Shown: in pieces, positions 3,170 to 49,369 of the stretch
How the letters are laid out: every line of letters begins with the position of its first letter
Position numbering within the stretch: the first letter of the stretch is position 1
Assembly: GCA_922989275.2 (NCBI GenBank)
Contig: OV277866.1
Span: 58,023,246 to 58,087,245 of the forward strand
Source of the DNA: Gari tellinella
Taxonomy: Eukaryota; Mollusca; Bivalvia; Cardiida; Psammobiidae
Reading direction: 5' to 3'
Length of the DNA: 64,000 bases
Notes under the pieces: generated by a model
Told to the model about the DNA's origin: nothing
The model's database searches: none
The model's input: the letters and a program-made list of their open reading frames with translations, nothing else
Translations under genes and position numbers: made by a program

Positions 3170-3344
3170 CAATCAGTCAATATGCACGAACTCTTAATTT
3201 GGCAAATTAAAACGGGCGATTATATAAAGAGTCTCGCAACAATTTTTAGCTTTAAAAATAGTAAATTGTAAATATATTTCAAATGCTCATATAAAGTGGT
3301 AAGAATTAGTATAGGATAAGAAATTATGTTTAAAAATGCATTTC

Positions 3345-3425: not shown

Positions 3426-4001
3426 TCTAAAAAATGAAGATAAGGATGTTTTTAGACTGATCATATTTTTCTAATGCAAGATAATGCTACACATTTGGTT
3501 TTATTTGAGCATTTTCTTTTATTGTTTGCAAATACACCATCCGGTTGCGAGTCGCTTTAAAGGTGATATTTTTTTGATTTGTTAACAGTTAAGCATGAAA
3601 TAAATATACAATGAAATTTAAAATTAAACAGTGAACACTTTATTTTATTACCAAATCTTAGGAGCTGAATCATGTGAACAACTTACCTTATTAAATATAC
3701 CGGCCATATAAAATCTGTTTTTCGGTCTCTAATCCAGTTGATAACAGATGGGTGGCAGCTTTGGGTAGAATAAAAGTAAGGCATAAAACTCCATTCGGGG
3801 TGTTTCTGTCTTATTTTCATAGCTTACATTTGGAATATAATTATAAATATTTCCCAATAAACGCCTGTGACCCTGTTGAAATAGATCTACGTATGACAGG
3901 GCGTTATTTTTTTTATCACCGTTGGGGTAGACTGACAATATTGAAATGTGAGCCCGAGGTCGATTCCCAGCGATCTCAACATTGAAAATAGACAGGAACG
4001 A

Positions 4002-4140
4002 TTGAAAATAGACAGAAACGAAAAGTAACGTTAAAATAAGTCACCGGGTTGATTCCAAACGTGCTCAATGTTGAAAATAGACAGAAACGACAAGTAACGT
4101 TAAAATAAGTCACCGGGTTGATTCCAAACGTGCTCAATGT
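4002..4140. repeat. Tandem duplication, 69-bp unit x2
   Basis: Two copies of a 69-bp unit starting TTGAAAATAGACAGAAACGA begin at 4002 and 4071, with a third start at 4140 that then diverges. A 20-bp partial unit precedes at 3982. The two copies differ at about one position. Confidence 0.75.
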
Positions 4141-4274
4141 TGAAAATAGAGACCGGGTCTATTCTAAATATTATGAATAGACCCGGGTCGATCAGTAACG
4201 ATGTAAAAGACATAGGATCGGTTTCCAATGAAGGGTCAACGCTAAATGTATCATCGGTTGACTTAATATATTAA

Positions 4275-5525: not shown

Positions 5526-5893
5526 TTAATGATGTTCATTGAGAGATTATGTTTAATACCCACTGAGATCCATGACCTCGCATTTGAAACATTTATGATT
5601 TATCCTTCTACAATATGTGAACATGAAATTGTCGTCTGCAACAATTTTCAAATTTGATCTTAAGGCATTTTCTTTCAGTTTATTTCATCATGCAGTGTCA
5701 AATTCGTCATTTAGATCCAGATGAGACCCCCAAAAGACTTGACTTCTCATCTTGATCCCAACTCTTGTCAACAAGTTAAATAGTATAAGTTACGCGAATT
5801 AACCGACTAACACGTTACAGTATTTATACTTACGTTCCGCTCTATATATAAGATCACAATTTCAAATCTGTGTCATCATGATACGACTTTAAC

Positions 5894-6010
5894 CCTTTAC
5901 CCCATAGTCCATTTCTAGTTTTGAAGACAGGTGACTACTTAAAGCATGTTGGCTTTAAGCTATATACCATCTGCTAGGATATAGGAAATATTGCTGATGC
6001 TGCATATTCT
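5894..6010. mobile_element. TTAA MITE, truncated copy
   Basis: Starts TTAACCCTTTACCCCATAG at 5890 and follows the family to 'ccatctgctaggatatagg', but the hairpin core is deleted and the right end is missing. Confidence 0.5.
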
Positions 6011-6220
6011 ACGAAAAGTTTGATCATAATATGTGTTAATGTCGCAGTAAATAACCTCTTGAACTTTTATTTAATGCAACTTATATATTAATTAGAACAT
6101 TTAACAAATACAATATATGTAACAAAACATCGAAACATTTATCTCTACGGTGTAAATCCGATATGAAAATTAAGAAGTTCAACAATATCTCGTGTTGTCT
6201 GAATACACCAGTAACTGGTA

Positions 6221-6479
6221 CAGTGGAGAATACGCCATTCCTTCCCGTTTAAACGAAACGAAACGCAAACGCAAAACACTAAAACGTAGAAAAGTGCAAC
6301 TTTCGGACAATTCTGATAATTCATGTTTATCTTGGTGGCAAACAGTTTGGAGCCTGATCAGACGCCTGGATACCTGGCGTCTGACCTGGCTCCAAACTGT
6401 TTGCAATAGAAATAGGGAATAGAAATAATAGTTTTAGCGTAAACTCGATTATTTGGAAAGAATAACGTTTTCTCCACTG
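6221..6479. mobile_element. TA-flanked MITE, CAGTGGAGAA family
   Basis: TA (6219-6220) then CAGTGGAGAATACG at the left; CGTTTTCTCCACTG then TA (6480-6481) at the right. The centre is a long foldback around CAAACAGTTTGGAGCCTGAT. CAGT...ACTG ends with a TA duplication are typical of mariner/pogo-type elements; the superfamily call is inference. Confidence 0.7.
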
Positions 6480-6549
6480 TACACACCGGTAATACTATAG
6501 GACCATTGAGGGTTTATGTGTCACTACAAATAATTTCCTGTAGAGAGTA

Positions 6550-6785
6550 CAGTGGAGAAAACGTTATTCTTTCCCAATAAACGCGTTTACGCTAAAACTA
6601 TTTTTTCCATTGCAAAGAGTTTGGAGCCAGATCAGACGCCGGGTAACCCGGCGTCTGATCAGGCTCCAAACTGTTTGCCACTCAGATCAACATGAATAAT
6701 AAAAATTGTCCAAACGTTGTTCTTTTCTATGTTTTAGTGCAATGCGTTTGCGTACGTTTGGGAAATAATAACAGATTCTCAACTG
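6550..6785. mobile_element. TA-flanked MITE, CAGTGGAGAA family, second copy
   Basis: TA (6548-6549), CAGTGGAGAAAACGTTATTC at the left and TTCTCAACTG then TA (6786-6787) at the right. The core hairpin, about 6615-6680, pairs GGAGCCAGATCAGACGCCGG with its complement. Confidence 0.7.
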
Positions 6786-6879
6786 TACATTTGTAATACA
6801 AACAGGGAAGACACAGATCACAGAGTCCTCTGATCAGATCTGCTTCGTTTGTAATTGTACAGAACATAGTTTAAAACAC

Positions 6880-7399
6880 TCCAAAATAGTCAAAATTAGG
6901 TTATCCTGAAACTATTCTTTCCATTGCAAAAAGCTTGGAGCATGATCAGACGCAGGGTAACACAGTGCCTGATTAGACTCCAAACTGTTTGCCACTCAAA
7001 TTAACTCATAAATGACGAGTATACTCGTCGCTAGGGTTGAATGTGTTAAAAATAATAGTTAGAATTGTCAACAAGTAGCCATTTACCTATTTAAGTGCAG
7101 TGCGTTTGCGCTTCGTTTAACCCATTACCCCGTTACATAGCCCGTTTCTCGTTTTGATGATATGTTACAGCTTAAAGCAGGTTGAAAGTAAAGCAGAATG
7201 CGCCATAAGGCGCATTCTGCTTTACTTTCAGCCTGCTTAAAATTATCATTTACTAAAATATAGAAAATATTTCTTATGAGTATTTCATGACTATACAAAT
7301 TTGCACTATTTTCTTCAGGAATAAATTAGAGGCGTCAAAAGGCGCATTTATGGGGTAATGGGTTTAACGGAAAAGAATAACGTATTCTCCACTGTACTG
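6880..7399. mobile_element. CAGTGGAGAA-family copy split by a TTAA MITE
   Basis: The core (CTTGGAGCATGATCAGACGC and its inverse, 6930-6985) and the right terminus (AATAACGTATTCTCCACTG, ending at 7395-7396) belong to one worn copy. Its 'cgtttaacg' stretch is interrupted at TTAA by the MITE at 7121-7363. The left terminus is lost. Confidence 0.5.
7121..7363. mobile_element. TTAA MITE, CCCATTACC family (nested)
   Basis: TTAA at 7117-7120 and 7364-7367. Left end CCCATTACCCCG, right end ATGGGGTAATGGG. The core hairpin (7186-7231) is near perfect. Inserted in the CAGTGGAGAA-family copy. Confidence 0.75.
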
Positions 7400-7421
7400 A
7401 GTGTAGTTCGGTATATAGAGG

Positions 7422-7575
7422 TTACAGCGCAAACACACACGGTAGGTCAAACTCACAGGTTCTTGACACATAGATCTAGATCTATTACCAAAAATAATGG
7501 AAGTCTAGTAAAAAAAATAGTTGGTAATAGATCTAGATCTATGTGTCATGTACCTGTGGTCAAACTTGTGTTCAG
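7422..7575. repeat. Long inverted repeat
   Basis: Arms at about 7432-7490 and 7522-7575 share CATAGATCTAGATCTATTACC, a CAGGT block and a GTCAAACT block in inverse order. A foldback element without defined termini. Confidence 0.55.
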
Positions 7576-7603
7576 TGCCACTTCAAATTAGTTTAACCTT
7601 ATA

Positions 7604-7810
7604 CCGTGAAACCTCTCTATACCATAGTTCGGTCTATAAATAAACTACATGTATTTGAAAACAGGTGACAACTTAATGCAGGATAAAAGTAAGACAGAGA
7701 TGTACCTTTTGTTAGCGTTTGTGTAGCTTTTATCCTGCATAAAGTGGTCACCTGTATTTTGTATTCAACATTTTTCCCCAAACTGTGCCCAGTTAACAGA
7801 GGTTTTACTG
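7604..7810. mobile_element. TA-flanked MITE, CAGTAAAACCTCTG family
   Basis: Left TA then CCGTGAAACCTCTCTATAC; right GTTAACAGAGGTTTTACTG then TA (7811-7812). The interior holds inverted ACAGGTGACAACTTAATGCA and GCATAAAGTGGTCACCTGT arms. Pogo/mariner-like by its ends and TA site. Confidence 0.55.
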
Positions 7811-9746: not shown

Positions 9747-11104
9747 AACAAGAGGGCCTGAAGGCCCTGATATCGCTCACCATTTGTAATGAAGCCTGAT
9801 AGCTTTACCTTTGAATTTCACCCGTTTTATTCTAAATCCATTCAAGTTTGTCGACCTACTGTAGTATAGTAGAGTACATCAAAGGCAGTTAACTAGAGCC
9901 TAAACAATACTGAAATGAAGCCTTTTTCTAGCATTTCAAAGTATATCAAGGGCAGATAACTATTGCCACAATTATTACATTTCAACAATAATTGCACTCC
10001 TTCCAGAACATATAACTACATCCTTTGTGTACAAGTATAATCAAAATCCATTGAAAACTGTAGTTACAAGAGTGTAAACACTGTAAAATATGGCATTTTC
10101 AGCAATTCAAAGGTAGATATCTCTTGATCTATTTGTCCGATTCCAACCATTATCACACTTATTCAAACTCTTATGGTCATATACAATCTGGGCAAGTTTG
10201 AGAGAGCTTGGATAAATATTGTGGCCTCTAGAGCGTAAACACTGTTAAATATATCATTTTCAGCAATTCAAAGGTAGATCACTTTTGACCTATTGATCTG
10301 ATTACAACCATAATTGAAATCATCCGAAGTCTAATGGTAGTATACAATCTGAGTAAGTTTGAGAAAGATTGGATAAAATTTGTGACCTCTAGAGTGTAAA
10401 CATCGTTAAATATGGCATTTTCAGCAATTTAAAGGTAGATAACTCTCGACCTATAAGTCTGATTTCAACCATAATCAAACTCATCTGAACTCTTATAGTC
10501 ATTTACAATCTGAGCAGGTTTGAGATAGATTGGATAAAATTGTGGCCTCTAGAGTGTAAACACTGTTAAATATGGCATTTTCAGCAATTCAAAGGTATAT
10601 TTGTTCGATTTCAACCAAAATCGAACTCATCCGAACTCTTATGGTCAAATACAATCTGGGCCAGTTTTAGAAAGATTGGATAAATACTGTGGCTTCTAGA
10701 GTGTAAACACCATTAAATATGGCATTTTCAGTAATTCAAATGTAGATAACTTTTGATCTATTTGTCCGATTTCAACCAAAAGCGAACTCTCTTGTACTCT
10801 TATGGTCATATACAATCTGGGCAAGTTTTAGAAAGATTGGATAAATACTGTGGCTTCAAGAGTGTAAACACTGTTGAATATGGCATTTTCAGCAGTTCAA
10901 AGGTCGATAACTCATGACCTATTTCTCCGATTTCAACCATAATCGAACTCATCCGAACTCTTATGGCAATATACCATCTGAGCAAGTTTGAGAAAGATTG
11001 GATAAATATTGTGGCCTCTAGAGTGTAAACACTAAAATTGTTTACGACGCACGACGGACATTCAAGGATTGCAAAAGCTCACCCTGAGCTAGCTCAGGTG
11101 AGCT
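9747..11104 (+). mobile_element. Helitron-like (HINE/pearl-type) element, subfamily A, copy 1
   Basis: Begins AACAAGAGGGCCTGAAGG and ends CTCAGGTGAGCT before a run of A. The 5' end has the hairpin AGGGCC-TGAA-GGCCCT; the 3' end has AGCTCACC...GGTGAGCT with an inner GAGCTAGCTC palindrome. The core is six 161-bp repeats. Copy 2 of the host TIR element keeps the uninterrupted site (GAAAAACAAAAACGTTT at 46861). Comparing the two shows a clean insertion with no target duplication, as rolling-circle elements leave. No Rep/helicase is present. Assignment to bivalve pearl-like elements is inference. Confidence 0.7.
10072..11030. repeat. 161-bp tandem repeat core of the Helitron-like element
   Basis: The phrase AGTGTAAAC(A/-)CTGTTAAATATGG recurs at 10071, 10232, 10393, 10553, 10700, 10861 and 11022. 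The steps are 161, 161, 160, 147, 161 and 161 bp; the short step is one deletion. Confidence 0.8.
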
Positions 11105-24271: not shown

Positions 24272-24310
<39 letters not shown>

Positions 24311-30300: not shown

Positions 30301-33300
30301 TTTTAATTGGAGATAAACTTTATTAATCGCTTTTGTAACACTAAAACACATATTATTTCTGATTTCTCCATCAAACCTTGTCTTGTGACATCTCTTTTGA
30401 TTTGTCTTTTCAAGACATTTAAAAAGACATGCCACATAACATGATTAGACAGAGAAAGAAATAATTATTGAAAATTTTATAATCTGACTTACAACAATAT
30501 TTGTTGTACCACATTTCATTAGACGAGCCGAAGTGCTCTATATGAAGGGTCTACCATCTTAACCTACGTTGTTAACAAACTCATTTTAATTAGAGCTCCA
30601 GATGAGGGTATTTGAAACGTTAAAATCCTTATGCCTCGAACAAACTCTATGATTCTGGTGAAATTAGGAAACTCTATGATGAACCATCACTTTGCAAAGG
30701 GTTTGTGGGTGGCATAACAGAGAAAAGGCTGGAAAAAGTGGTTATTGCATTCTTATTTAACCCATTACCCAAATAAATACCCCTTTTTATGCCTTTAATC
30801 TATTGAATGAATGAATGAATGAATGAAATGAATGACTTTATTTAACGAGGATAGCCCATTTAGTCTAATGACTAATCCTCCATGAGGCCCTCCATTAAAG
30901 TATTACATCCATAGATTTTCTATAGTTTTAACCCTTATCCTGCTATAATATCGACTCCTTTGAAATTGTCGTTTACAAATTTCTTAACATTCAGAATTAT
31001 GCAATTTTTAATTATAGACAAGAGCCGCATGCGGCCCTAGATCGCTCACCTGAGGACTATTGTGTTATATATTACTCAATGCAAAATGAAGTTTGTCATT
31101 GCATGTATGTGGACTGTTGCAGGAAGAAGTAATTCGGAATCTGTTTGTCATTATTACTATTTGAGCAAAAGGGGAAAATATGGCAATGATATAAATAGTG
31201 CTAATAAAGGGTCACTTAAACAATATTCATTCAAAATATTATTGAATTCAGACAATGGTTTCAGAAAAGCAATTGTTTTAAAAAACAAGAGGGCCTGAAG
31301 GCCCTGATATCGCTCACCATTTGTTATGAAGCCCAATAGCTTTACCTTTGAATTTCACCCGTTTTATTCTAAATCCTTTCAAGTTTGTCGACCTACTGTA
31401 GTATAGTAGAGTACATAAAAGGCAAATAACTAGAGCCTAAACAATACTGATCGAAATGAAGCCTTTTTCTAGCATTTCAAAGTATATCAAGGGCAGGTAA
31501 CTATTGCCACAATGATTACATTTCCACAATAAGTGCACTCCTTCAAGAACGTATAGCTACATCCTTTGTGTACAAGTATAATCAAAATCCATTGAAAACT
31601 GTGGTTGCAAGAGTGTAAAGGCTGTATTTTCAGCAATTCAAAGGTAGATAACTCTTGACCTATTGATCCGATTACAATCATAATTAAACTCATCTGAAGT
31701 CTTATGGTAATATACAATCTGAGTAAGTTTAAGAAAGATTGGATAAAATTTGTGGCCTCTAGAGTGTAAATATCGTTAAATATGGAATTTTCAGCAATTC
31801 AAAGGTAGATAACTATCGACCTATAAATCTGATTTCAACCATAATCAAACTCATCTGAACTCTTATAGTCATATACAATCGGAGCAAGTTTGAGATGTTT
31901 TGGATAAAAATTGCGAACTATAGAACGTAAACACTGTTAAATATGGCATTTTCGGCAATTCAAAGGTAGATAACTCTTGATCTATTTGTCCGAATTCATC
32001 CAAAATCAAATTTATCCGAACTCTTATCATCATATACAATCTGGGCAAGTTTTAGAAAGATTGGATAAATACTTTGGCCTCTAGAGTGCAAACCCCGTTA
32101 AATATGGCATTTTCAGCAATTCAAAGGTAGATAACTCTTGATCAATTTACCTTTTCATCCAAAATTGAACTCTTCCGAACTCTTATGGTAATATACAATC
32201 TGGACAAGTTTTAGAAAGATTGGATAAATACTGTGGCCTCTAGAGTGTAAACACTGTTAAATATGGCATTTTCAGCAATTCAAAGGTAGATAACTCATGA
32301 CCTATTTGTCTGATTTCAACCTTAATTGAACTCATCTGAGCTCTTATGGCAATATACCATCTGAGCAAGTTTGAGAAAGATTGGATTAATATTGTGGCCT
32401 CTAGAGTGTAAACACTAAAATTGTTGACAACGGACGACGGACATTCAAGGATTGCAAAAGCTCACCCTGAGCTAGTTCAGGTGAGCTAAAAATCCATTAT
32501 ATTTTTATAAGTCTATGTAAAACTGATAAGCCCCGGGGCAGGGCCATTTTTGACCATGGGGACATGATTTGAACAATTTTGGTAGAGGACCATAAGGCAA
32601 AGCTAGATGCCAAATATAAAAGGTCTGGGGCTTACGGTTTCAGAGAAGAATATTTTTTTAAGGTTTTCCTATATAAGTCTATGTAAAACTGATAAGCCCC
32701 GTAGCAGGGCCATTTTTGACCCTGGGGTCATGATTTGAACAATTTTTGTAGAGGACCACAAAGCACTGGCGGCCATGTTTTTTGACGGATCAAAATTCTT
32801 TGAACAATTTTGAAAGTATATTAATTGAGAAACATTTTGGTGAAAACCAAATTGAAATCGGACCAGTCGTTCTTGAGAAGAAGATCTTTTAAAATATTGT
32901 GCATGGTTGCCATGGCGACAAGACCGATTGCCCCACCCACTTTTTTTTAACAATTTTTAAAGCTCACAACTACAGTATTTATTTGACCAAGTTTGGTTAA
33001 AATTGGGCCATTGGTTTAATAGAAGAAGTTGTTTGAAAGAAATTGTGAACGGACGACACCGACAGTGAGTCACACCAACACCAACCGATCACAATAGCTC
33101 ACCATGAGCACTTTGTGCTCAGGTGGGCTAAAAACCAAAAAACGAGTGTCAAACAGTTTGTATCAAGATGAAACGCTGGATCTGAACCGTTGGCAAATTG
33201 TAATAAAATCGGGATTAGCAGGTAAAGGGTTAAATATGTACAGACGAAATCAGCTCAATAGCAGATTAAAGAAACATATGCTTTTAAAATACTCAAATAT

Positions 33301-36300
33301 TATAAACCCTACATGACGCAGTGAGAGATTTCCACAGCAGAAGAATCATCGAGATATCCAACACTTAAACAGATATTCCAGGGCAGGCTAGAAACCCCTG
33401 AAAACAGCAAAAGCGAAATATATCTAGATCCAGAATGAAAATTAAATACTCAGTCTAAATCTATTACAAACCGAGTTCGAGTGTATAATTATATAGAAGT
33501 TAAAACGCCATTTATTGTAAAGGTAAAAGGTAAAGGTGATAGGTTTGTCAAGTCTGAAATTTATATGTCATATTCTTCCAACTTTTACAATTACCTCCCT
33601 GTTCATCGAGTCACAAGTTGGCCATTTACATACGGTGCTACTGGCAGCCATGACACATTGACTTGTTTCCCTCTCAGGTACCTATTTAAATCACCTGGGT
33701 GAAGTGGAGCAATGTAGGGTTAATTTTTTGCTCAGAAAAATTTCAGTGATCCTGACAGGGCTCGAACCAGGAACCTCTCGCTTCCTAGTCGAGCGTCCTT
33801 ACCACTGGACCACAGACACCTACCTGGACCACCGACACCTACCTTTGTGGCACAACGGGAACCAGACTAAGCCAAGCATGCGATATATTTGTACACAATC
33901 ATGACATCACATAATCGTAGTTATATGACGTCATAATGATGACGCTATGGAATGTAGAAATTTCCCACGGTCGTATGTAGAAATAGTTTGAAATACAGTA
34001 ACACATCTGAAAACCGGACACAAACACCAGCGGTTCCCCGACAGGCTGACGCCCAGAGCAGCACGATGGTATTACAGAAATCTCATATAAGAGCTCTCTG
34101 CAACACCATCATAACGCACAGCGCAATAGTTCTTCCTTAATTCCCTCTTTCACCACAAAGGTGTCCAGATTTCAGACGTTTAACTGTAATATATATCAAT
34201 ACATGTTCGAGCTCCAAATAAGACAAGACGACAGACCACTTTTTAAGTTTTTATGCAAACAGCTCACCAACACATCAGACCCTGAGTGTCTCAGCACTTG
34301 CTGTAGTTATATTGAGCACCATTTTTTTAACACATATTCATGATCATCTACAGAAGAATAAAGTTCCAATACAGTCATGAGCACCATAAAGGCAATAGCT
34401 TAAAGCAGGCGGAAACTAAAGCAGAATTTGCCTTAAAGAAACTCGAAACAATAATAAGGAAACTATTTAGCCTACTGAGCAACCAGACTATTTATATATC
34501 TCATAATCTGTGATCGATTTAAAGTACTTCAGTGTGTAGCTATGGAGAGTACATAATTCGGCTCTAGTTTATGCTTGAGCCTGTTATCAATTTCTATTGC
34601 CTCTTTCGATGCCCATGGTAAAAAACACCTATGCCAATCTGCTTTACTTTTATCCTGCTTTAAGCTACCTGGTGCATATGCATTGTACTCATCGTATAAA
34701 ATGGAACTATATTTTCAAGTGGAGGAATGAATTAATTTCGTAACACTTAAACAGGGTGTATTTTAGTTAAGCTGTGTGTACCTATCACTACATGATTACC
34801 TGAGTCTCCAGCTGCCATCTGCATTCTACTCCTGTTAGGTCGTCTTCTAACATGTCTACCTGGTGGGGCGTTGTCTCTCGCTCTCGGTCCTACAGCCTGC
34901 GCCTCTCTCTGTGCATTGTCACTTGGTTTCTCTACAAAATGAAAATAACAATCAGGGCTCCAGATAAGATTTTACAAGTTTGAGGCCGTGTGTATTGTGT
35001 GATTCATCTTCAATTTGGATAAATAAGGTATCGTTGAAAAAAAAATGTCTTGACTGTAAAATAATTCAGGGCACGACAAATTTCATGAAAAGCTGGTTGC
35101 CCACAGGGCAACCAAAATTATTTTCTGGTTGCCCTGAATTTATCACACAAAAGATGTCCCAAATTAACCCGTTTAATTCAAACCCTTCATAGATGTACCA
35201 GATTAACCTTTTTAATTAAAACCCTTAATTCACAGCTTTTAGAATACTCAAAAGGAAATATGCAACACCTCTCCCTGGATCTCATCAGGCAGGTGAAATT
35301 ATTAGCATTGGATAATACATAGACATAGATAATACAGATCATCATCTCCTGATACTGATAGGCTGTCACATTTTTTTTGGTTTATATTATTCATGTTTTT
35401 TCATTCTTAAATTTGAAATTTAGTTACTATTTCTTAACATCTCTATATATCTATCACACCTTTTCTTTCAACAGCTGTAGCAACTTAGCATTGCAATTTT
35501 AAAAATCTATCTCAGTCTCACCCTTCAAATTTATTAATTGACAGTATCAGGGGATTTCATAGGAGAACTAAGATGTAAGTTTTCTGTGTTCTTACATCCC
35601 GCACGGGGGCAGGGGCTCATGGTTTATTCATATCCACATTTTCTGGAAGTGACTTTCAGTTTGACTGAAGTAACTACACTTAAAAAACAAAATAAAAGTT
35701 CACGTTTTTCTGCCCATATTATTACACTCTCGAGTGATCGGATCCGTTTTTTTATCATTATTATTTGCTTTCCGAAAATTCACCAAACAAGTTTTTTACT
35801 TTACAAACTTCGAGGAAGACAACCCAAGTCCAACATTTCATTTGCGAACAAAACTATGTTAAAGTCCATAACTACTGCACCTACCTTTGAAAGTTATTAT
35901 TAAGACTTGAAAATCGCTGGTAAAACATATTTATTGCCAGCACAATGTTTAATCTTATTGTAACAGTGTTTCATTGTACTTTCATTTTTATAGGAAAATC
36001 CTATATTCATCTAGTCAGGTTCCCGGATGTTTGATTATTTCGGAGTTAATAGGAGACAGGGAACCAGACTAATATTCATCTTTCATATCATTCGGAGCTC
36101 CCCAGGTGTTATCCATAGATATCTTAAATCTATGGTGTTATCGCTGAATTTAATGACTGGTTCACAAAAAGTTAACTAAGTGTACCAGTCTGTGTTTATA
36201 AAATTCTTCTGCGATAAATTTAGAAGTATGCCGAATGTATCCACGAGATTGTTTACACAAAATGACAAGCTCAGCATGGTGTTTGATCAAGCGTGAACTG

Positions 36301-38696
36301 CTAATTGGGGTGTGTTATCGCTAATCCACAAGAATCCTTTGTAACTGTTCTACCCTACAGACAAAGATAAGTGTCCACAGGGGTCTTAATTAATCGGCAA
36401 ATTTGTTGCACACTTTCAATTTTTATGGCTTTAGTCCGATACTTCAGTCCATGTAGATGCAGTACCGCTAGACAGTAGTAGACACAAGGTCTTACTGTTA
36501 CGAAATGCAACTAGTAGATGACTCGCACGGCATTATTCTGACATATTGAAATTTTCCAAAAGTGAAATAATCCGGGCATCTTAAAATGGAATTAAAGGGT
36601 TGCCCGCCGGGCAGCAGTTTGAAAAATATGGTTGCCCAAGCAAAACATTTGGTTGCCCGCCGGGCTCCGAGCACAGGATTTGTCGTGCCCTGATTTAAAT
36701 ATTGCAAAGTTCTTGATGATAAACCCTTTTATTGTGTAGCACCGACGTGTAGTTGGCGATATGTGTTTAGATACCGTTAGTGCCCTTTTCTTTTCTTTAT
36801 AAACCTGTATAGCTCAGTGGTAGAGCGTCTGCTTGCAGTGTGGAAGGTTGCGGGTTCAATCCCTGGCTTGGTCAAACCAAAGACTTGAAAATTGGTAGTA
36901 ATGGCTTCCCTCCTTGGTGCTCAGGAAACCGAGTTAGCATTACCAATGTGACGGAAATGGACGGTATATAAACACTTCTACAGTCTGACTGTGGAAGCCG
37001 GCTTTTATAGCCAGATTGTCTAAGCCTTTGTCTCGGTTGCGAAGTTAAGCAACGTCCTGTGCGGTTAGTACCTGGATGGGTGACCGGCAGGGATTACAGT
37101 CGGCCCGGTACACGTTACAAATTTGGTGGCAGCGGTGGGATATGGGATGACATCACCGTCATCCCCGGATCCATGTCGCATTGTCTCTGCAATTAGGACT
37201 GCCATGTGAGCAGGGTGATTTCGGGGCGAAGTCAAGAGAAAAGGGGGAGAAATGTGACGGAAATGGACGGTATATAAACACTTCTAAAGTCTGACTGTGG
37301 AAGCCGGCTTTTATAGCCAGATTGTCTAAGCGTTTGTCTCGGTTGCGAAGTTAAGCAACGTCCTGTGCGGTTAGTACCTGGATGGGTGATCGGCAGGGAT
37401 TACAGTCGGCCCGGTACACGTTACAAATTTGGTGGCAGAGGTGGGATATGGGATGACATCACCATCATCCCCAGATCCATGTCGCATTGTCTCTGCCCTT
37501 AGGACTGCCATGTGAGCAGGGTGATTTCGGGGCGAAGTCAAGAGAAAAGGGGGAGAAATGTGACGGAAATGGACGGTATATAAACACTTCTACAGTCTGA
37601 CTGTGGAAGCCGGCTTTTATAGCCAGATTGTCTAAGCGTTTGTCTCGGTTGCGAAGTTAAGCAACGTCCTGTGCGGTTAGTACCTGGATGGGTGACCGGC
37701 AGGGATTACAGTCGGCCCGGTACACGTTACAAATTTGGTGGCAGCGGTGGGATATGGGATGACATCACCATCATCCCCGGATCCATGTCGCATTGTCTCT
37801 GCAATTAGGACTGCCATGTGAGCAGGGTGATTTCGGGGCGAAGTCAAGAGAAAAGGGGGAGAAATGTGACGGAAATGGACGGTATATAAACACTTCTACA
37901 GTCTGACTGTGGAAGCCGGCTTTTATAGCCAGATTGTCTAAGCGTTTGTCTCGGTTGCGAAGTTAAGCGACGTCCTGTGCGGTTAGTACCTGGATGGGTG
38001 ACCGGCAGGGATTACAGTCGGCCCGGTACACGTTACAAATTTGGTGGCAGCGGTGGGATATGGGATGACATCACCATCATCCCCGGATCCATGTCGCATT
38101 GTCTCTGCCCTTAGGACTGCCATGTGAGCAGGGTGATTTCGGGGCGAAGTCAAGAGAAAAGGGGGAGAAATGTGACGGAAATGGACGGTATATAAACACT
38201 TCTACAGTCTGACTGTGGAAGCCGGCTTTTATAGCCAGATTGTCTAAGCGTTTGTCTCGGTTGCGAAGTTAAGCAACGTCCTGTGCGGTTAGTACCTGGA
38301 TGGGTGACCGGCAGGGATTACCGTCGGCCCGGTACACGTTACACCATTACGACTGGTTCGTTGGTGTTAAGATAAAGTGACCGGCCGGGTAGGCGGGTAC
38401 AGTCCTAATGGTTCACCTAAAAAAGTGCCCCTTCTCATAATCATCAGAATTGATGGCGTAGAAGTAAAAAAAATAGATAGATAGGTACTAAGATAGATCA
38501 CAGAACAAGCCGATTCTGATTGACCATATGTTTTGACAGAAAATGACGGATATTACCAATGACTGCCATGTGTCACCAGTTAACAAACTTGTATCTTACT
38601 CTTTTCTTTGCCTCCACAGAAAATGCTAATTATTAGCATAGTAACCACAACCACCGCAACTGAAACGAGATAAATTGTTCCTTGATCAACTGCCAT
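21081..38696 (-). CDS. DDRGK1: DDRGK domain-containing protein 1 (UFBP1), complete, 8 coding exons
   Basis: DDRGK1 is an ER-membrane adaptor. With UFL1 it forms the UFM1 ligase that modifies ribosomal protein RPL26 and acts in ER-phagy and the unfolded-protein response. Joined exons: 38600-38696, 34800-34931, 29926-30062, 28744-28845, 27339-27458, 25863-25901, 23386-23442, 21081-21338. All introns are GT-AG and all phases agree. The product is 313 residues; the human protein has 314. Seen: an N-terminal membrane anchor (about 8-26); the family block [10 protein letters not shown] (102-111); a Glu/Lys-rich coiled coil (about 105-185) ending [11 protein letters not shown]; and a C-terminal winged-helix region with the name motif DDRGK at 248-252 followed by FIYIT. 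The start is set at Met 38696 because the family has few residues before the anchor. An in-frame Met at 38771 would add 25. The introns are packed with transposons. Confidence 0.93.
21394..21533. repeat. Foldback (GGGTCCAAGGTTATAAAG arms)
   Basis: Outer arms TGGGTCCAAGGTTATAAAGA and TCTTTATAACCTTGGACCCA, then inner AATCTAACCAAT and ATTGGTCAGATT. In DDRGK1 intron 7. Related arms are at 15975-16150 and 26085-26190. Confidence 0.6.
21675..21806. mobile_element. TTAA MITE, right half missing
   Basis: Starts CCCTTTACCCAATAG and covers the core hairpin (CAGTAAAGCAGAATGC and its complement), then stops at 'gctttaagctacc'. Confidence 0.55.
22207..22822. mobile_element. TA-type foldback, CAGTGATCCCTCTCTAC family, with nested MITE
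   Basis: Left CAGTGATCCCTCTCTACAAC after TA; right GTTGTTGTAGGGAGGGAG. The core hairpin (AATCCAGATCAGACACCG ... GACGTCTGATCTGGG) is split at TTAA by the MITE at 22368-22611. Confidence 0.55.
22368..22611. mobile_element. TTAA MITE nested in a hairpin apex
   Basis: TTAA at 22364-22367 and 22612-22615. Ends CCCTTTACCTCATAG and ATGGGGGAAAGGG, full core hairpin 22425-22483. Confidence 0.75.
23176..23364. mobile_element. CAGGGCTCCAGATAAG foldback MITE
   Basis: Ends CAGGGCTCCAGATAAGGGG and CTTATCTGGAGCCCTG. Flanks CATAAC (23170-23175) and CATAAT (23365-23370) suggest a 6-bp duplication. Core arms CTATGGTGTCACTACTCAT and complement, with TCGTCTCTTCGAGACGA at the tip. Confidence 0.7.
23386..23442 (-). 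CDS. DDRGK1: DDRGK1 exon 7 (19 codons)
   Basis: Follows ATGCTTTTCAG; encodes [19 protein letters not shown], the family's VVxLEDLA helix of the winged-helix region; donor GTATGT. A CAGGG foldback MITE ends 21 bp beyond the exon. Confidence 0.93.
23493..23691. mobile_element. TTAA MITE, CCCATTACC family
   Basis: TTAA at 23489-23492 and 23692-23695; core hairpin intact, about 50 bp deleted from the right arm. Confidence 0.7.
23746..24003. mobile_element. TTAA MITE, CCCATTACC family
   Basis: TTAA at 23742-23745 and 24004-24007; right end is ATGGAAGAAAGGG. Core hairpin 23816-23871. Confidence 0.7.
24276..24545. mobile_element. TTAA MITE with a 35-C run in its end
   Basis: TTAA at 24272-24275, then C35 (24276-24310) where relatives have CCCATTACCCC, then ATAGAAGCGCC. 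Right TTAA at 24546-24549. Inverted relative to most copies. Confidence 0.65.
24549..24735. repeat. Worn MITE fragments
   Basis: Two half-arms (TTTCTGCTTTATTTTTTCATC and TTCTGCTTTACTTTCAGTC), followed by family sequence up to 'ttcatgactata'. Probably a deleted, partly duplicated copy. Confidence 0.4.
24750..24978. mobile_element. TTAA MITE, CCCATTACC family
   Basis: TTAA at 24746-24749 and 24979-24982; left end CTATTACCCCATAG, right end shortened to AGGCGTAAAAAGG. Confidence 0.6.
25609..25851. mobile_element. TTAA MITE abutting the exon 6 donor
   Basis: TTAA at 25605-25608 and 25852-25855. Carries a perfect 46-bp palindrome at 25667-25712 with TTAA at its centre. The right TTAA is one base from the GTATGT donor of DDRGK1 exon 6 (25857-25862). 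Confidence 0.8.
25863..25901 (-). CDS. DDRGK1: DDRGK1 exon 6 (13 codons)
   Basis: Follows AATATTTCAG; encodes [13 protein letters not shown], matching the family's FINYIK helix; donor GTATGT. A TTAA MITE begins one base past that donor hexamer. Confidence 0.92.
26309..26716. mobile_element. TTAA MITE with a second copy inside its hairpin
   Basis: Outer TTAA at 26305-26308 and 26717-26720. The left core arm stops at GCAGAATGCCCC and the right arm resumes at TGCGCATTCTGCTT, on either side of the nested copy. Confidence 0.7.
26391..26633. mobile_element. TTAA MITE nested in the apex of another
   Basis: Flanked by TTGA (26387-26390) and TTAA (26634-26637). Ends CCCTTTACCTGATAG and CTATGGCTAAAAGG; its own hairpin is complete. 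Confidence 0.7.
27004..27315. mobile_element. Two broken TTAA MITEs, one in the other's apex
   Basis: The left copy starts TTAACCCATTACCCC at 27000 and breaks at ATGCGCC-TTAA (27158-27161). A second, inverted copy (CTAAATTATTCCTCCATCGAAG and on) starts there and ends near 27315, just short of exon 5. Confidence 0.5.
27339..27458 (-). CDS. DDRGK1: DDRGK1 exon 5
   Basis: Follows TTGTCTTGCAG and ends CTCGAT before GTAAGT. 40 codons, ending the coiled coil with the conserved [13 protein letters not shown] motif. Confidence 0.93.
27592..27823. mobile_element. TTAA MITE, CCCATTACC family, inverted
   Basis: Left TTAA 27588-27591; the right end TATTGGGCTAA has lost its TTAA by one base. Hairpin 27719-27770 is near perfect. 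Confidence 0.6.
27966..28158. mobile_element. CAGGGCTCCAGATAAG foldback MITE
   Basis: Ends CAAGGCTCCAGATAAGAGG and AACTGGAACCCTG; core TATGGTGTTACTACTCATTAG and its complement. Opposite orientation to the copy at 23176. No clear duplication. Confidence 0.6.
28163..28255. repeat. MITE core hairpin, divergent type
   Basis: GCTTAAAGCATGGTAATAG and CTGTCACCTTGCTTTAAGC outer arms, with AGAAAGCTCC-AATA-GGAGCTTTCT at the tip. Same plan as the main MITE core but a different tip sequence. Confidence 0.5.
28744..28845 (-). CDS. DDRGK1: DDRGK1 exon 4 (coiled coil)
   Basis: Follows TTCATTTCAG and ends ATTCGG before GTTAGT. 34 codons ([20 protein letters not shown] and on), phase 0 on both sides. Confidence 0.9.
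28894..29058. mobile_element. TTAA foldback element with perfect 40-bp palindrome
   Basis: TTAA at 28890-28893 and 29059-29062. At 28959-28998 a perfect palindrome starts CCCTGATCAGAGGGCTCC, flanked by GCAAACAGTG and ACAATGTTTGC. Confidence 0.65.
29250..29690. mobile_element. TTAA MITE split by a CAGGG foldback MITE
   Basis: The family sequence runs from TTTACCCAATAGCC to 'cttgagtggagg', is interrupted at 29455-29647, then resumes 'ggaggaataaatt' and ends ATTTATGGGG. Confidence 0.6.
29455..29647. mobile_element. CAGGGCTCCAGATAAG foldback MITE (nested)
   Basis: CAGGGCTCCAGATAAG at the left and CTTATCTGGAGCCCTG at the right. The host sequence GTGGAGGAATAA is split so that GGAGG is repeated on both sides. 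The core stem of about 60 bp is nearly perfect. Confidence 0.75.
29723..29904. mobile_element. TA-flanked MITE, CAGTCGAA family
   Basis: TA (29721-29722), CAGTCGAAATTC at the left and GAAGTTCGACTG, TA (29905-29906) at the right. The centre pairs GTAGTTCAAAGTTTAAACGTG with its complement at GGCTAAGCC. Ends 22 bp from exon 3 of DDRGK1. Confidence 0.65.
29926..30062 (-). CDS. DDRGK1: DDRGK1 exon 3
   Basis: Follows TTGCTTTTAG and ends CGAGAA before GTGAGA. Encodes an acidic [16 protein letters not shown] stretch, then [20 protein letters not shown], the diagnostic start of the coiled coil. A TA-flanked MITE ends 22 bp beyond the donor. Confidence 0.92.
30103..30530. mobile_element. CCCGTTTCATAAAAC-type MITE, divergent copy
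   Basis: Starts GGCCCGTATTACGAAACATT and ends TTGTTGTACCACATTTCATTAG. The middle has CTTGTGACATCTCTTTTGA and a worn inverse, as in the full copy at 58210-58445. Confidence 0.5.
30592..30690. mobile_element. CAGGGCTCCAGAT foldback, left half
   Basis: AGAGCTCCAGATGAGGGTAT then 'aaatccttatgcctc'; the inverse half is not found. Confidence 0.35.
30757..30797. mobile_element. TTAA MITE end fragment
   Basis: TTAACCCATTACCC followed by 'cctttttatgcctttaat', cut off by the LINE tail. Confidence 0.45.
30798..30915 (-). mobile_element. 3' end of a LINE with (ATTC)n tail
   Basis: On the minus strand: GGGCTATCCTCGTTAAATAA, then AGTCATTCATT and four to five ATTC units. A short microsatellite tail after an AATAAA-like stretch is usual for CR1/L2-type LINEs. 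A very short 5'-truncated copy. Confidence 0.5.
31018..33129 (+). mobile_element. Helitron-like element, subfamily B, carrying a subfamily A insert
   Basis: 5' ACAAGAGCCGCATGCGGCC (perfect 12-bp palindrome 31024-31035) then GATCGCTCACC. 3' AGCTCACCATGAGCACTTTG then TGCTCAGGTGGGCTA. The interior shares TGATAAGCCCCGGGGCAGGG repeats with the copy at 49709-50900. Interrupted at 31284-32487. Confidence 0.6.
31284..32487 (+). mobile_element. Helitron-like element, subfamily A, copy 2 (nested)
   Basis: AACAAGAGGGCCTGAAGG to GTTCAGGTGAGCT, then AAAAA. The core carries the same ~161-bp repeats as 9747-11104. Confidence 0.7.
33540..33825 (-). mobile_element. SINE with tRNA-like head, minus strand
   Basis: The head at 33751-33823 has an A box (TGGTCCAGTGGTAAGGACG) and B box (GGTTCGAGCCC). 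The body continues to lower coordinates past GTGACTCGATGAACAGG. A pseudo-tRNA head of a SINE is more likely than a tRNA gene, because the D-arm and acceptor pairing are poor and a body follows. Confidence 0.5.
34345..34745. mobile_element. TTAA MITE opened at its hairpin
   Basis: Left arm 'ggcggaaactaaagcagaatttgcc' ends at TTAA (34433). The right arm 'ccaatctgctttacttttatcctgctttaag' starts near 34634. About 200 bp of other sequence lies between. Confidence 0.45.
34800..34931 (-). CDS. DDRGK1: DDRGK1 exon 2
   Basis: Follows ATTTTGTAG and ends ACTCAG before GTAATC. Encodes [20 protein letters not shown] and on to MQMAAGDS: the Arg-rich linker after the anchor. This part is poorly conserved in the family, so the call rests on splice phase and position. 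Confidence 0.8.
35067..36692. mobile_element. hAT-like non-autonomous element, CAGGGCACGACAAA ends
   Basis: TIRs CAGGGCACGACAAATTTC and GGATTTGTCGTGCCCTG. Subterminal GGTTGCCC motifs occur several times near both ends, in both directions, as in hAT elements. The flanks give no clean 8-bp duplication. The 121-codon frame inside (35538-35903) shows no transposase features. In DDRGK1 intron 1. Confidence 0.6.
36965..36972 (+). promoter_or_regulatory. TATA box placed as in 5S genes (repeated in each LTR)
   Basis: Aligning the LTR's GAAGTTAAGC to positions 48-57 of a metazoan 5S RNA puts +1 near 36994 and the TATA at about -29 to -22. Many animal 5S genes need a TATA-like box there. It could equally serve Pol II. 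Confidence 0.45.
37036..37110 (+). promoter_or_regulatory. 5S rRNA-like Pol III internal control region
   Basis: Box A AAGTTAAGCAACGTC, the intermediate GGTTAGTAC and box C TGGATGGGTGACCG are in the order and spacing of 5S genes (TFIIIA site). Similarity fades outside the region, so it is not a working rRNA gene. Recurs at +306, +612, +918 and +1224. Confidence 0.8.
37124..37141 (+). other. Primer binding site, tRNA-Leu type
   Basis: TGGTGGCAGCGGTGGGAT is complementary to ATCCCACCGCTGCCACCA, the 3' end of animal tRNA-Leu (AAG/TAG family) with CCA. It sits four bases after the LTR. Confidence 0.75.
37253..37425 (+). repeat. LTR 2 of the TRIM array
   Basis: 173 bp; carries CTAAAGTCTG and TGATCGGC variants. 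The following primer site has AGAGG for AGCGG. Confidence 0.85.
37559..37731 (+). repeat. LTR 3 of the TRIM array
   Basis: 173 bp, closest to the consensus of the five. Confidence 0.85.
37865..38037 (+). repeat. LTR 4 of the TRIM array
   Basis: 173 bp; one change in box A (AAGCGACG for AAGCAACG). Confidence 0.85.
38171..38343 (+). repeat. LTR 5 of the TRIM array (terminal)
   Basis: 173 bp; has ATTACCGTC for ATTACAGTC. The SINE resumes directly after CACGTTACA. Confidence 0.85.
38600..38696 (-). CDS. DDRGK1: DDRGK1 exon 1 (residues 1-32, phase 1 end)
   Basis: Encodes [20 protein letters not shown] and on to CGGKEK: the N-terminal signal anchor. The donor is AAAAGA before GTAAGA. The open frame continues upstream to another Met at 38771. 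Confidence 0.88.
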
Positions 38697-40312: not shown

Positions 40313-43076
40313 ATCTGATCTGATCTGATCTGAATATAGTACGTCGTAAAATCCTATAAAGGCTTTTACACGACGGATGTGAAGAGAAGCCATTTTATTG
40401 GCGATGATCTCGTAGGGCTGTCTTAAAAGCCTCTACGGAATCAGCATGCACTGTGCTGTCTGGCAGTTTGTTCCACTGCATCATAGTGTCTACAAAGAAG
40501 GAATGTCTGTACTGTGGTGTTTTGCTATTTGGGACTGTGAGTCCTCTTGTGTTGTTGCATACCTAGTTTTCAATTATATTATTCGTACTGTAATCTTTAA
40601 ATTTAGTAGCTTTAATGTTTCTTCTTGGTTTTGCCGGTTTGGTAAATGTTTGTGTTGGTAGAGCTGGTACTAGACCTTCTACTACCTTGTACATGAGTAT
40701 TAAACGAAGGCTTAGTCTCCTGTCTTCAAGGGTCTCTAGTTCCAGCCGTTCTCTCATTTTGGTGATAGCCCCTGTCTCTCTGTCTTTGTAGTTCTTTGTT
40801 ATAAATCTGATTGCTCGGTTTTGAATTTTTTCTAGTTTGTCGATGTCCCCTTTGAGGTAAGGATTCCAGATTGTTGCTCCATACTCCATTATTGATCGTA
40901 CTACTGAAATGTATGCTGTTTTTCTGCATTTTTCGGGTACGTTTCTAAGGTTTCTTCTAAGGAATCCAAGTGTGTAATTAGCTTTCTTACATACATTGTT
41001 TATGTGCACATTCCATTTGAGGTCTTTGGATATCTGTATCCCTAGATACGGATTATCTTGTACCTCTTGTAGAAAGTGGTTATTAAGTTGATAGAATTTG
41101 GTTATCTTTTTGTTTATGGAGAGTATGTAGCATTTCTTTGTATTGAATCTCATGCCCCATTTGCGTGCTCATGTTTCTAAGCTATTTAGGTCTGTCTGTA
41201 GTTTTTCTTGGTCTGTACTACTTTTGATTATCCGGTACAGTAGGCAGTCATCTGCAAACAGTCTAACAGATGATTTCACACAGTCTGGGAGGTCATTTAT
41301 GTGACAAAGGAACAGGATTGGGCCAAGAATAGTTCCTTGGGGGACTCCGGAGTCCACTGATGTTTCACCCGACTGATCCCCTTCCACAATGGTTCGCATT
41401 TTACGAGTGGTCAGGAAATTGGTCAGCCAGGTATGAATACTTCCTTGGACTCCGTATTGTCGTAATTTATAAAGTAGTTTGTCGTGAGGTACGGTGTCAA
41501 AGGCCTTAGAGAAATCTAATATTGCGACGTCTGTCTGGTTCCCCTTGTCATGTTCTTGGAGGAAGTCATTTAGTGTAGTTAGGAGTTGTGTCTCACAGGA
41601 GTAGCCTGTTCGGAATCCATGGTTCAGGTTTGTAAGGATTTTGTTGTTTTCGAGGTGTATCATTAGGTGTCTGCATATTATGTGTTCTAAAATTTTACAA
41701 ATAACTGATGTTAATGACACTGGTCTGTAATTTTCAGCAAGATGCTTATCTCCTTTTTTGAAGATACTGGAGACATTTGCTGCTCTCCAGTCACTTGGGA
41801 GCTCACCTGTATCTAGTGAAGCCTGTATAATGATTTTTAGGATTGGAGCTAGGTGGACTGCACGTTCTTTTAGGATACGATTTGGTATGTTGTCAGGACC
41901 TGAAGCTTTAGACGGGTTAACTTTTTCTAGTAATTTTTGTAAATCGTTTTGATCAATTTGGATCGGTTTTACTGTGTCTTTTGATTTCGTTTCCATGTAT
42001 GGTAGTTGTTGGTTTGTGTTTTTTGTGAATACGGACTTAAATTGTTTCAGAAGGATTTCTGCCTTACCTTTACTATCTGATACCAGTGATGTCCCTTCTT
42101 TTAGAGGAGCAATGCCCCCTGCATCTTGCTTTTTAGATTTTACATATTTCCAGAAAGGTTTTGTGTTGTTATTATTTAAGCCTTCAATAATGTTTGAGTT
42201 TATATAGTCTTGCTCAGCCTTTCTCATGTGCCTTTTGCATTCTTTTTGGAAAGCCCTATAGTTTGACCATTTCTTTGTTTTGCGGGCTTGGTTGTAGAGT
42301 CTCTGTTTCTTTTTTATCATTTTATGTTCCTTCTTCCTTATCCAAGGTACCTTATTTTTCGATTTTATTTCTTTACTGGGTATGTTTTTGTTCATTGAGC
42401 CAAAGAGTTGGTTTTTAAAGGTGTCCCATAGTTTTTGAACATTTTCTCCGTTCTTATGTTCGTCTTCAATTCTAGTTTTAGTTTTGGTTAGGTCTTCATT
42501 TATCGAGTTCCAGTCCGCTTTACTGTAGATGTAACATTTTCTGGGTGCTGATTTTTGGTGCTGGACTTTTGTCTCTATATCCGTTATAATGATATCATGG
42601 TCAGATATGCCTGGGACATTTGTGGATGATTTTATTAGTGTTGGGTTTGTTACAAATACCAGATCTAAAAGGTTTCCTTGTCTAGTGGGTGATTCATGGA
42701 TTTGTGTTAGAGAGTTTGCTCCCATGGTGTCAATGCGGCCTTGTTGTATGTCTCTGTCAGGCCCTTTAGCTATTCCTGAGTTCCAGTCTATGTCTGGGCA
42801 GTTAAAGTCTCCTGCTAGTATAATGTCTTTGTTGCAACTTTGTATTTGCTGAAGTGAATTTTCTAGTTCTGTCAAGTGTTTTTGATGCCTATGTGGCATA
42901 TAGAAGGAGCCTATCAGTAAATCTTTATTGTTTTTTGTCTTGATTTTAACCCATTCAATCTCTCCTTCTGTGACAAATGACGGTTGCTCTACTGAGATTA
43001 GGGATTTTTCTACGAGCACAAAAACCCCTCCTCCTAGTGAGCTTCTATCGTTCCTGTAAGTGTTATAGTTGGATGT
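40313..43076 (-). mobile_element. 5'-truncated CR1/jockey-like LINE
   Basis: Lies between the halves of a MITE. Its 3' end is a (CAGAT)n tail (40313-40335); its 5' end is cut within the endonuclease domain, as target-primed reverse transcription often leaves. The ORF 3' part and a 3'UTR of about 80 bp are present. Confidence 0.75.
40395..43076 (-). pseudogene. LINE ORF2 remnant: endonuclease-reverse transcriptase with two in-frame stops
   Basis: One frame of 894 codons runs 43076 to a TAA at 40395-40397, broken only by TGA (41169-41171, where relatives have Trp) and TAG (40563-40565). Domains in order: the C-terminal two-thirds of an APE-type endonuclease (GDFNCPDIDW; ISDHDIIITDIE); a basic linker; reverse transcriptase with NYRPVSL, DFSKAFDTVPH, GVPQGTILGP and the catalytic FADDCLLY; then thumb and C-terminal blocks ending WNKLPDSTVHADSVEAFK. 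The endonuclease N-terminus is missing. CR1/jockey-type by motif order; the exact clade is not resolved. No frameshift, so the copy is fairly young. Not functional as it stands. Confidence 0.85.
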
Positions 43077-43850
43077 ATTGTGACATCTCTTTGGAATCGT
43101 CTTGAAAAGACGGATTTGATAGAGAAATCGGAAATTAAATATATTTTAAAAAGTGTTAACTTACGACAACATTTGAGGTCAAAAGTTTTATGAAACGGGT
43201 CCAGACTCTGCTCTGTTTTGGGCCATTACTGGTGACCGAAAAGCTGATACAGAGTTTAAGCCAAACACAGGTTTAACTATATTTAATGAAAACTTTATTG
43301 GCCATCCTTGTATATATTCAATAATATTAAAGTTACACATATCTAGACCTTTATTGGACCAGCTCGACCTGACCTTGTCAGTCTTACCATCAAGGACAAC
43401 AATATACAGATATGTTCGTAAATTAATCGAAAACATGTTATTTGGGATACATTTAGAAATTTTAGATTCAAAACATATATAAAGTAATATATTCAAATTT
43501 TAATTCACACTAAAAGCTAGGAATGTAAATAATCGGTCCTTTGACTAAACGGATGACCATTTAAATCTTCCGAGCGGTTGACCGGTTAACCGGCCAATAT
43601 TGCTCGACAGTTGCGACAAAGTATCCAGTTTATTGAAATAAGCTGAAACTATTTCAACGCCGGTGTAACATAATGAATTGACCCCCATAGAAAAATGACC
43701 CGCGCTAAAAAAACAAACTAACCCCCAGTCGTAGTACATGTATTTTGAGTGTCCGGTCATAAAATGACACGACGGCACACGAAGAAAACTGACCCCTTAT
43801 ATGAACAACCATAACCCCCTTAAAATAGCGACCTCAAAAACATTCATTAA

Positions 43851-48158: not shown

Positions 48159-49369
48159 AACAAGAGGACATGAAGGCCCTGATATCGCTCACCATTTGTA
48201 ATGAAGCCTGATAGCTTAATTAACCTTTGAATTTCACCCGTTTTATTCTAAATCCATTCAAGTTTGTCGACCTACTCTTGTTGGTAGAGTACATTAAAGG
48301 CAGATAACTAGAGCCTAAACAATACTGAAATGAAGCATTTCAAAGTATATCAAGGGCAGGTAACTATTGGTACAATGATTAGATTTCAACAATAATTGCA
48401 CTCCTTCGAGAACGTATAGCTAAATACTTTGTGTACAAGTATAATCAAAATCCAATGAAAACTTTAGTTGCAAGAGTGTAAAGGCTGTAAAATATGGCAT
48501 TTTCAGCAATTCAAAGGTAGATAACTCTTGACCTATTTGTCCAATTTCAACCATAATCACCCTTTTTCGAACTCTTATGGTCATATACAATCTGGGCAAG
48601 TTTGAGAGAGCTTGGATAAATATTGTGGCATCTAGAGCGTGAACACTGTTAAATATGTCATTTTCAGCAATCCAAAGGTAGATAACTCTTGACCTATTAA
48701 TCCAATTACAACCATAATTGAACTCATCCGAAATCTTATGGTAATATACAATCTGAGTAAGTTTGAGAAAGATTGGATAAAATGTGTGGCCTCTAGAGTG
48801 TAAACACCCTCAATTATGGCATTTTCAGCAATTCAAAGGTAGATAACTCTCAAACTATTTGTCTGATTTCAACCATAATCAAACTCATCTGAACTCTTAT
48901 AGTCATGCAATCTGAGCAAGTTTGAGATAGATTGAACTTTAGAATGAAAACACTGTTAAATGTGGCATTTTCAGCAGTTCAAAGGTAGATTACTCTTGAT
49001 CTACATTTGTATTTGTCCGATTTCAACCAAAATCGAACTCATCTGAACTCTTATTGTCATATACAATCTGGGCAAGTTTTAGAAAGATTGGATAAATATT
49101 GTGGTCTCTAGAGTGTAAACACTATTTAATATATCATTTTCAGCAATTCAAAGGTAGATAACTCATGACCTATTTGTCCAATTTCAACCATAATCGAACT
49201 CATCCGAACTCTTATGGCAATATACCATATGAGCAAGTTTGAAAAAAATTGGATAAATATTGTAGCCTCTAGAGTGTAAACACTAAAATTGTTGACGACG
49301 CACGACTGACAACGCACGACGGACATTCAAGGATTGCAAAAGCTCACCCTGAGCTAGCCCAGGTGAGCT
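48159..49369 (+). mobile_element. Helitron-like element, subfamily A, copy 3
   Basis: AACAAGAGGACATGAAGGCC to AGCCCAGGTGAGCT, followed by A7. ~161-bp core repeats as in copies 1 and 2. The 5' hairpin has one mismatch. Confidence 0.7.

Follow-up and report, generated by a model that had tools for sequence, protein, structure and literature searches.

The promoter of the 5S rRNA gene has been described in the long terminal repeats (LTRs) of terminal-repeat retrotransposons in miniature (TRIMs) from plants (Cassandra) and from ribbon worms (Ajax). For Cassandra, PMC10886601 gives an RNA with a terminal repeat of 18 nt, resulting from start and stop within the 5S region, while in the account in PMC7215508 the helper is called unknown, and template switching and LTR-LTR recombination are the two routes proposed for its arrays. 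Ajax was reported by Kojima in 2024 (PMC10886601) from the nemerteans Notospermus geniculatus and Lineus longissimus, as a TRIM with a 5S promoter and a tRNA-Leu primer site. It is the only animal 5S TRIM among the matches listed in a literature search covering mostly open-access papers, with Repbase outside its scope, and none among these matches is molluscan; in the available part of a paper on beetle 5S genes (PMC11202950), Cassandra is spoken of as a plant element. Here a 5S TRIM is described from the bivalve Gari tellinella, in a stretch of 64,000 nucleotides referred to as the window (assembly GCA_922989275.2, contig OV277866.1, positions 58,023,246 to 58,087,245). At 36947..38343 of the window, five 173-bp LTRs and four 133-bp internal regions alternate with a period of 306 bp. 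This array is very probably a tandem copy of a TRIM with a host-5S-like promoter in its LTRs, for which transcription by RNA polymerase III (Pol III) is predicted, and which is likely copied in trans by Gypsy relatives sharing its LTR end and primer site.

The array was recognized in an earlier sequence-only reading, whose coordinates and repeat counts proved exact. Its features, all on the plus strand, are as follows.

36947..37119, +, LTR 1 (173 bp)
37120..37252, +, internal region 1 (133 bp), without an open reading frame (ORF) of 120 amino acids
37253..37425, +, LTR 2 (173 bp)
37559..37731, +, LTR 3 (173 bp)
37865..38037, +, LTR 4 (173 bp)
38171..38343, +, LTR 5 (173 bp)
37426..37558, 37732..37864 and 38038..38170, +, internal regions 2-4 (133 bp each)
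37124..37141, +, 18-nt primer site, recurring every 306 bp
37234..37252, +, polypurine tract preceding LTR 2, recurring every 306 bp
36965..36972, +, TATA box TATATAAA, 29 bases upstream of the predicted start
36994..37006, +, predicted R, from the inferred equivalent of 5S +1 to TTTT (37003..37006)
37040..37097, +, 5S-derived segment (5S 47-104), with box A at 37042..37056, the intermediate element (IE) at about 37060..37065 and box C at about 37073..37090
36809..36868, +, tRNA-like head of the short interspersed element (SINE) hosting the array, the SINE tail continuing from 38344

The LTRs differ from each other at 1-3 of 173 positions and the internal regions at 1-5 of 133, and TRF reports a period of 306, 4.6 copies and 98% matches. 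Each LTR starts with TGTGACGG and terminates with CGTTACA, in the TG...CA form. Every internal region opens with AATT followed by TGGTGGCAGCGGTGGGAT (one mismatch in the second copy), and closes with AAGAGAAAAGGGGGAGAAA immediately 5' of LTRs 2-5. The primer site is presumably that of a tRNA-Leu, based on an 18-nt match to a tRNA-Leu 3' end. The basic LTR-internal-LTR unit, of 479 bp, thus has the characteristics of a TRIM (two LTRs, a length below 1000 bp, no coding capacity, and both a primer-binding site and a polypurine tract). The window has seven stop-to-stop ORFs of at least 120 amino acids, all of which lie outside 36947..38343, and it contains no further copy of the element. The array is inserted in a tRNA-headed SINE, array-free copies of which are present in locus L083 and, less complete, in L085.

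Positions 94-151 of the LTR align without gaps to positions 47-104 of host 5S, with 50 of 58 positions identical, including 15 of 15 in box A, and the local score of 42.5 compares with at most 13.0 in 200 Markov shuffles. The box borders were placed from those of Xenopus 5S. Only these 58 bp are clearly common to both sequences: the 5' portion of 5S is absent from the LTR, and comparison of the 5S upstream region with the LTR gave no clear match. The Rfam 5S model stayed below its cut-off on one LTR (14.4 bits vs 38, E 1.4) and gave no match at E≤1 on 1.9 kb, and the LTR was rejected as an Rfam-grade 5S gene because of this score. As judged from these alignments, the 5S likeness is real but partial, and the 5S boxes claimed from the sequence alone stand as an ungapped match to the host gene and not as a full Rfam hit. 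The presence of small-RNA gene promoter sequence in the LTR, as observed here, is the defining feature of Pol III-promoter TRIMs (TRIMp3). The host 5S genes themselves (best 47 of 29773 candidates) comprise an array at C15:46.27-46.34 Mb, in which many genes are spaced about 520 bp apart, and single genes on C5, C7 and C13.

A search of the genome (1.6 Gb, 80 contigs) with one LTR-internal-LTR unit found at least 46 places on 15 contigs, of which 44 span the entire 479-bp query (4 within the window and 40 outside); the best 40 of 1326 first-look candidates were scored. LTR-internal-LTR is present in all 39 loci retrieved outside the window, and in 36 it is a single unit without an additional LTR. 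Exact 4-bp target duplications flank 27 of the 39, where mispaired flanks predict 0.55, while the remaining flanks match at 3 of 4 bases in seven loci and at 2 or fewer in five; exact duplications of 3, 5 or 6 bp were found in none of the 39. These five include two arrays (L019, L046) and a copy with an extra partial LTR (L031), at which the count took the inner and not the outer flanks, the outer ones being CCAA/CCAC, AAAG/AGAG and TTAC/TTAC, respectively. L037 and L047 have common flanks and represent one insertion. The duplicated sites prefer C-T-A-G (C 15, T 18, A 14 and G 15 of 27), the first base being C in 15 of 27 (p 1.3e-6). Within-copy LTR divergence has a median of 1.74% and a range of 0-6.94%, with zero in 5 of 39, so that some insertions look recent, in a set biased toward young copies because it was chosen by similarity to the window.

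A second sample, drawn by the LTR end alone (30 loci on contigs C1-C3 only, from the first 100 of 166 places), yielded 16 TRIM loci, 13 loci of another family (family A, described below) and one with only the 20-bp LTR end. The 16 TRIM loci, four of which overlap the earlier set (L086, L099, L112, L114), comprise nine full copies, five solo LTRs, a broken copy (L090) and a composite (L103). Of the 14 measured, nine have exact duplications, four match at 3 of 4 bases and one at none; among the solo LTRs, four of five have exact 4-bp duplications. The dispersed copies, target duplications and solo LTRs that the sequence-only reading had suggested looking for are thus all present. Exact LTR or junction patterns were found in neither viral nor GTDB contigs (0 in each). 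In L066, two oppositely oriented TRIM elements, one of them a three-LTR array, lie within 1.6 kb.

The LTR end, the AATT spacer and the primer site are shared with two coding Gypsy families (B and C) and two non-coding families (A and D). Family A has a 1029-bp LTR and an internal region of only 583 bp, and is for this reason taken as non-autonomous. The LTRs of family B (L081) measure about 1185 bp and agree at 99.9% of the 956 bp compared; the element has a gag frame and an extended pol frame, which encodes protease, reverse transcriptase (RT), RNase H and integrase. In family C (L082), where the LTRs are 289 bp long, gag, protease, RT, RNase H and integrase occupy separate frames. Two sequences assigned to Thiodiazotropha bins match the family C RT at 63% and 74% identity; Thiodiazotropha are symbionts of lucinid clams, and those bins probably carry host DNA. 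Family D (109-bp internal region, 164-bp LTR) is known from composites and pieces near TRIM copies only. No 5S promoter scored above shuffles in the LTRs of A, B, C or D. Target duplications of family A are also of 4 bp, exact in three of four solo LTRs, and family A resembles the TRIM in preferring C as the base that follows the LTR (12 of 12 family A loci, 13 of 16 TRIM loci); the LTR-end pattern excluded A as the next base, and L106 was omitted from the family A count because internal sequence follows. A family A element in L085 has its 3' LTR split by a 5.3-kb insert (2374-7642), at the ends of which 3 bases of the LTR are repeated.

A 20-mer spanning the LTR end and the primer site occurs 146 times in the genome (reversed control, 0), and inspection of 40 further junction loci found it common to several families. 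The first 20 comprised seven TRIM loci (three composite), eight of family A, two of B and three of C, and the second 20 comprised ten TRIM, one composite, four A, one B and four C. These counts are not unbiased shares, because the loci of both sets were chosen by hand among the first 100 places listed, in the second case from places unpredictable from the LTR-end sample. The figure of 146 was rejected as a TRIM copy number, since the junction also occurs in A, B and C.

In six composite loci, families are joined at the LTR/primer-site boundary. Four were found with the junction as bait, and L019 and L103 independently of it. L136/L137 consists of a TRIM LTR, an A internal region, an A LTR, about 10 bases, a partial A LTR, a TRIM internal region and a TRIM LTR, with AAAC at both outer flanks as an exact outer duplication. 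L076 is the reverse case (A LTR, TRIM internal region, TRIM LTR, A internal region). L019 and L072 contain a D internal-plus-LTR unit within a TRIM, the D LTR end being mutated in L072; L078 has a TRIM LTR followed by a D unit, and L103 a D LTR followed by a TRIM internal region and LTR. The composites show that the TRIM and other non-coding families have physically exchanged sequence, and by themselves do not establish B or C as the helper. A one-LTR circle recombining in the shared stretch would add an internal-plus-LTR unit, as would template switching or recombination between LTRs, and the LTR-(internal-LTR)4 of the window array may reflect the same addition process within one family.

Pol III transcription of the element is suggested by the arrangement of the LTR. 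If LTR position 48 corresponds to 5S +1, TATATAAA begins at -29, one base off the spacing in the host 5S array, where TTTATAA or TATATAA begins at -30 in 40 of 41 upstream stretches and at -36 in one (the stretches come from overlapping array loci, some genes being counted repeatedly). The single T4 of the unit lies at LTR 57-60, that is, at +10 to +13, and therefore a transcript that begins in the 5' LTR and terminates in the 3' LTR would have about 10-13 nt repeated at its two ends; of the 39 copies, 37 retain this T4 in the 5' LTR and 36 in the 3' LTR. Alternatively, the 5S sequence could be a passenger, inert or acting as a chromatin mark, in a TRIM transcribed by RNA polymerase II (Pol II) from the TATA box. 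This appears quite improbable, even though the TATA box could serve Pol II and 37 of the 39 copies retain it in either LTR: arrayed host 5S genes have a TATA box at nearly equal distance, and the unit, LTRs included, contains no AATAAA. Sequence variation speaks to both sides. The mean minor-variant frequency in 78 LTRs is 1.5% in the box cores (33 columns), 10.9% in the linkers (23) and 1.1% in the remaining LTR (115), with core and linker borders chosen by the authors from the Xenopus box positions; linkers vary more than cores (p 0.03), but cores are not better conserved than the remaining LTR (p 0.17). Conservation of the box cores is thus no higher than background, and the linkers distinguish subfamilies. 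Two further observations concern the predicted RNA: the predicted R lies at the centre of a 60-bp quasi-palindrome (36970..37029), whose two overlapping 31-nt arms are 71% complementary, and 316 nt (36994..37309) fold better than 100 of 100 shuffles (z -3.85).

A tandem 306-bp array with 5S boxes also looks like a 5S-spacer-5S array, as do the Cassandra arrays described in PMC7215508, and the LTR resemblance of a dispersed 5S rDNA pseudogene satellite or spacer array could be due to chance. This explanation is scarcely credible, given the prevalence of single LTR-internal-LTR units, the primer site and purine tract, the wider spacing of the true C15 array and the shortness of the shared 5S stretch. 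The identity as a 5S satellite is refuted by the target duplications and solo LTRs, and the element is a dispersed LTR retrotransposon. Occurrence solely as tandem arrays near 5S rDNA, which the sequence-only reading had named as the finding that would overturn it, was not observed: the 5S array lies on C15, and the element on 15 contigs. What holds is its identification of a TRIM, very likely of an animal host, whose LTRs contain 5S-type promoter sequence.

Its statement that no established animal counterpart was known does not hold, as Ajax is one. The element resembles Ajax in its partial 5S (box A, IE and box C, with the 5' part missing), TRIM size and animal host, and in having more LTRs than internal regions (1114 vs 151 for Ajax in L. 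longissimus; PMC10886601). The primer site of Ajax is described there as tRNA-Leu, to be compared with the 18-nt match to a tRNA-Leu 3' end here, which is presumably the primer site. The element could be a true member of Ajax, inherited vertically or passed horizontally between ribbon worms and the host, and not an independent capture of 5S. This seems rather unlikely, since Ajax is described with 5-bp duplications and a length of 421-434 bp (PMC10886601), unlike the 4-bp duplications (exact in 27 of 39 loci, with 5-bp ones in none) and 479 bp found here; the available part of that account names neither a helper family nor composites of Ajax. The element is built like Cassandra and Ajax, and lacks the duplication length of Ajax. 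As for Cassandra, the likeness lies in the 5S boxes in the LTR, the variable linkers between them (described as MotIE/MotC variation in PMC10853983) and the tandem arrays of LTR-(internal-LTR)n (PMC10853983, PMC7215508). The label Cassandra-like, given from the sequence alone, fits the predicted mode of working but not membership, as Cassandra has the primer site TGGTATCAGAGC (PMC7215508) in place of TGGTGGCAGCGGTGGGAT, plant hosts and a length of 565-860 bp (PMC10853983, PMC7215508). The Helenus families of animals likewise give 4-bp duplications and match Gypsy primer sites, but have a tRNA-derived promoter and not a 5S one (PMC10886601). The bivalve biv-TRIM shares the host group, tandem arrays of the form TDRx_I(x-1), and a GGGGAGA tract, but has terminal direct repeats (TDRs) of 202-218 bp and internal regions of 77-80 bp with a conserved TGATCCCAAAGGAC, compared with 173 and 133 bp here, and no 5S is reported in the available part of its description (PMC6934838). 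The TGATCCCAAAGGAC motif is absent from both strands of the 479-bp unit.

Several observations, in addition to the possible service of the TATA box to Pol II and the background-level conservation of the box cores, weigh against a Pol III-driven TRIM mobilized by these Gypsy relatives. The flanks of the window array agree at only 3 of 4 bases (CCAA/CCAT). Two isolated 5S genes beyond the host array (L048, L049) have no TATA box at the corresponding place. The support for Pol III from the absence of T4 between the two R sites, which holds in all 39 copies, is weak alone because 58.7% of Markov sequences also lack one. The bases shared with the TRIM left of the LTR end number 16 in A, 7 in B and 10 in C, and those to the right 23, 23 and 22 (the first 23 nt of the internal region being identical in A and B, and 22 nt in C), but 7 on the left and 13 on the right are shared by construction, the junction 20-mer having been the search bait. 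Most of the remaining right-side identity is primer site, fixed by the tRNA, and the informative features are the coding capacity and the longer match of A on the left. When the genome was searched for the exact pattern of the TRIM's own polypurine tract and LTR start, 7 places were found vs 2 for the control, one of the 7 falling in the TRIM array L073, and no family stood out, for which reason the Gypsy helper is a candidate only. For the autonomous partner with the same ends suggested earlier, B and C are candidates through their LTR end and primer site.

The favoured reading, of a TRIM with a 5S-like promoter copied by Gypsy relatives, suggests the following cycle. TFIIIA and Pol III would start near LTR base 48 and, with no T4 in U5 or the internal region, Pol III would stop at the TTTT at 57-60 of the 3' LTR. 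The resulting terminal repeat of about 10-13 nt would serve strand transfer, a tRNA-Leu would prime the minus strand and the AAAAGGGGGAGAAA tract the plus strand, and the helper Gypsy integrase would insert the cDNA, giving 4-bp duplications. Arrays would likely grow by addition of an internal-plus-LTR unit (through a one-LTR circle, template switch or unequal exchange) at the LTR/primer-site stretch. A broader interpretation, held with somewhat less than even confidence, is that of a module-swapping guild, in which the Pol III-driven TRIM would depend on a single replication system together with other Gypsy-dependent families, by way of the common LTR end, AATT and tRNA-Leu site, and would swap internal-plus-LTR cassettes with them into mosaic arrays, with the 5S promoter as the distinguishing module.

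Elsewhere in the window, a 161-bp tandem repeat forms three arrays with similar units (10069..11033, 31626..32416 and 48473..49284); it may be of the type of the bivalve satellite BIV160. The minus strand encodes a LINE-type endonuclease/reverse transcriptase in two frames (40563..43145), the longer of which is 69% identical to a pearl oyster protein (the closest named animal match, with other molluscs lower) and 72% to metagenome proteins. A tRNA-Pro (AGG) gene call on the minus strand (33746..33819) is possibly a SINE head, and a run of 35 C lies at 24276..24310.

The link to coding and non-coding relatives goes beyond the published accounts found, and if the guild interpretation is true, this would be the first 5S TRIM with a named helper group. 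Because coding candidates and composites with non-coding families are at hand, the entry of a Pol III transcript into a retrotransposon particle becomes testable. The element adds a third setting, after plants and ribbon worms, to those in which LTR elements carry a 5S promoter, and elements of this kind could inflate 5S gene counts and 5S cytogenetic signals.

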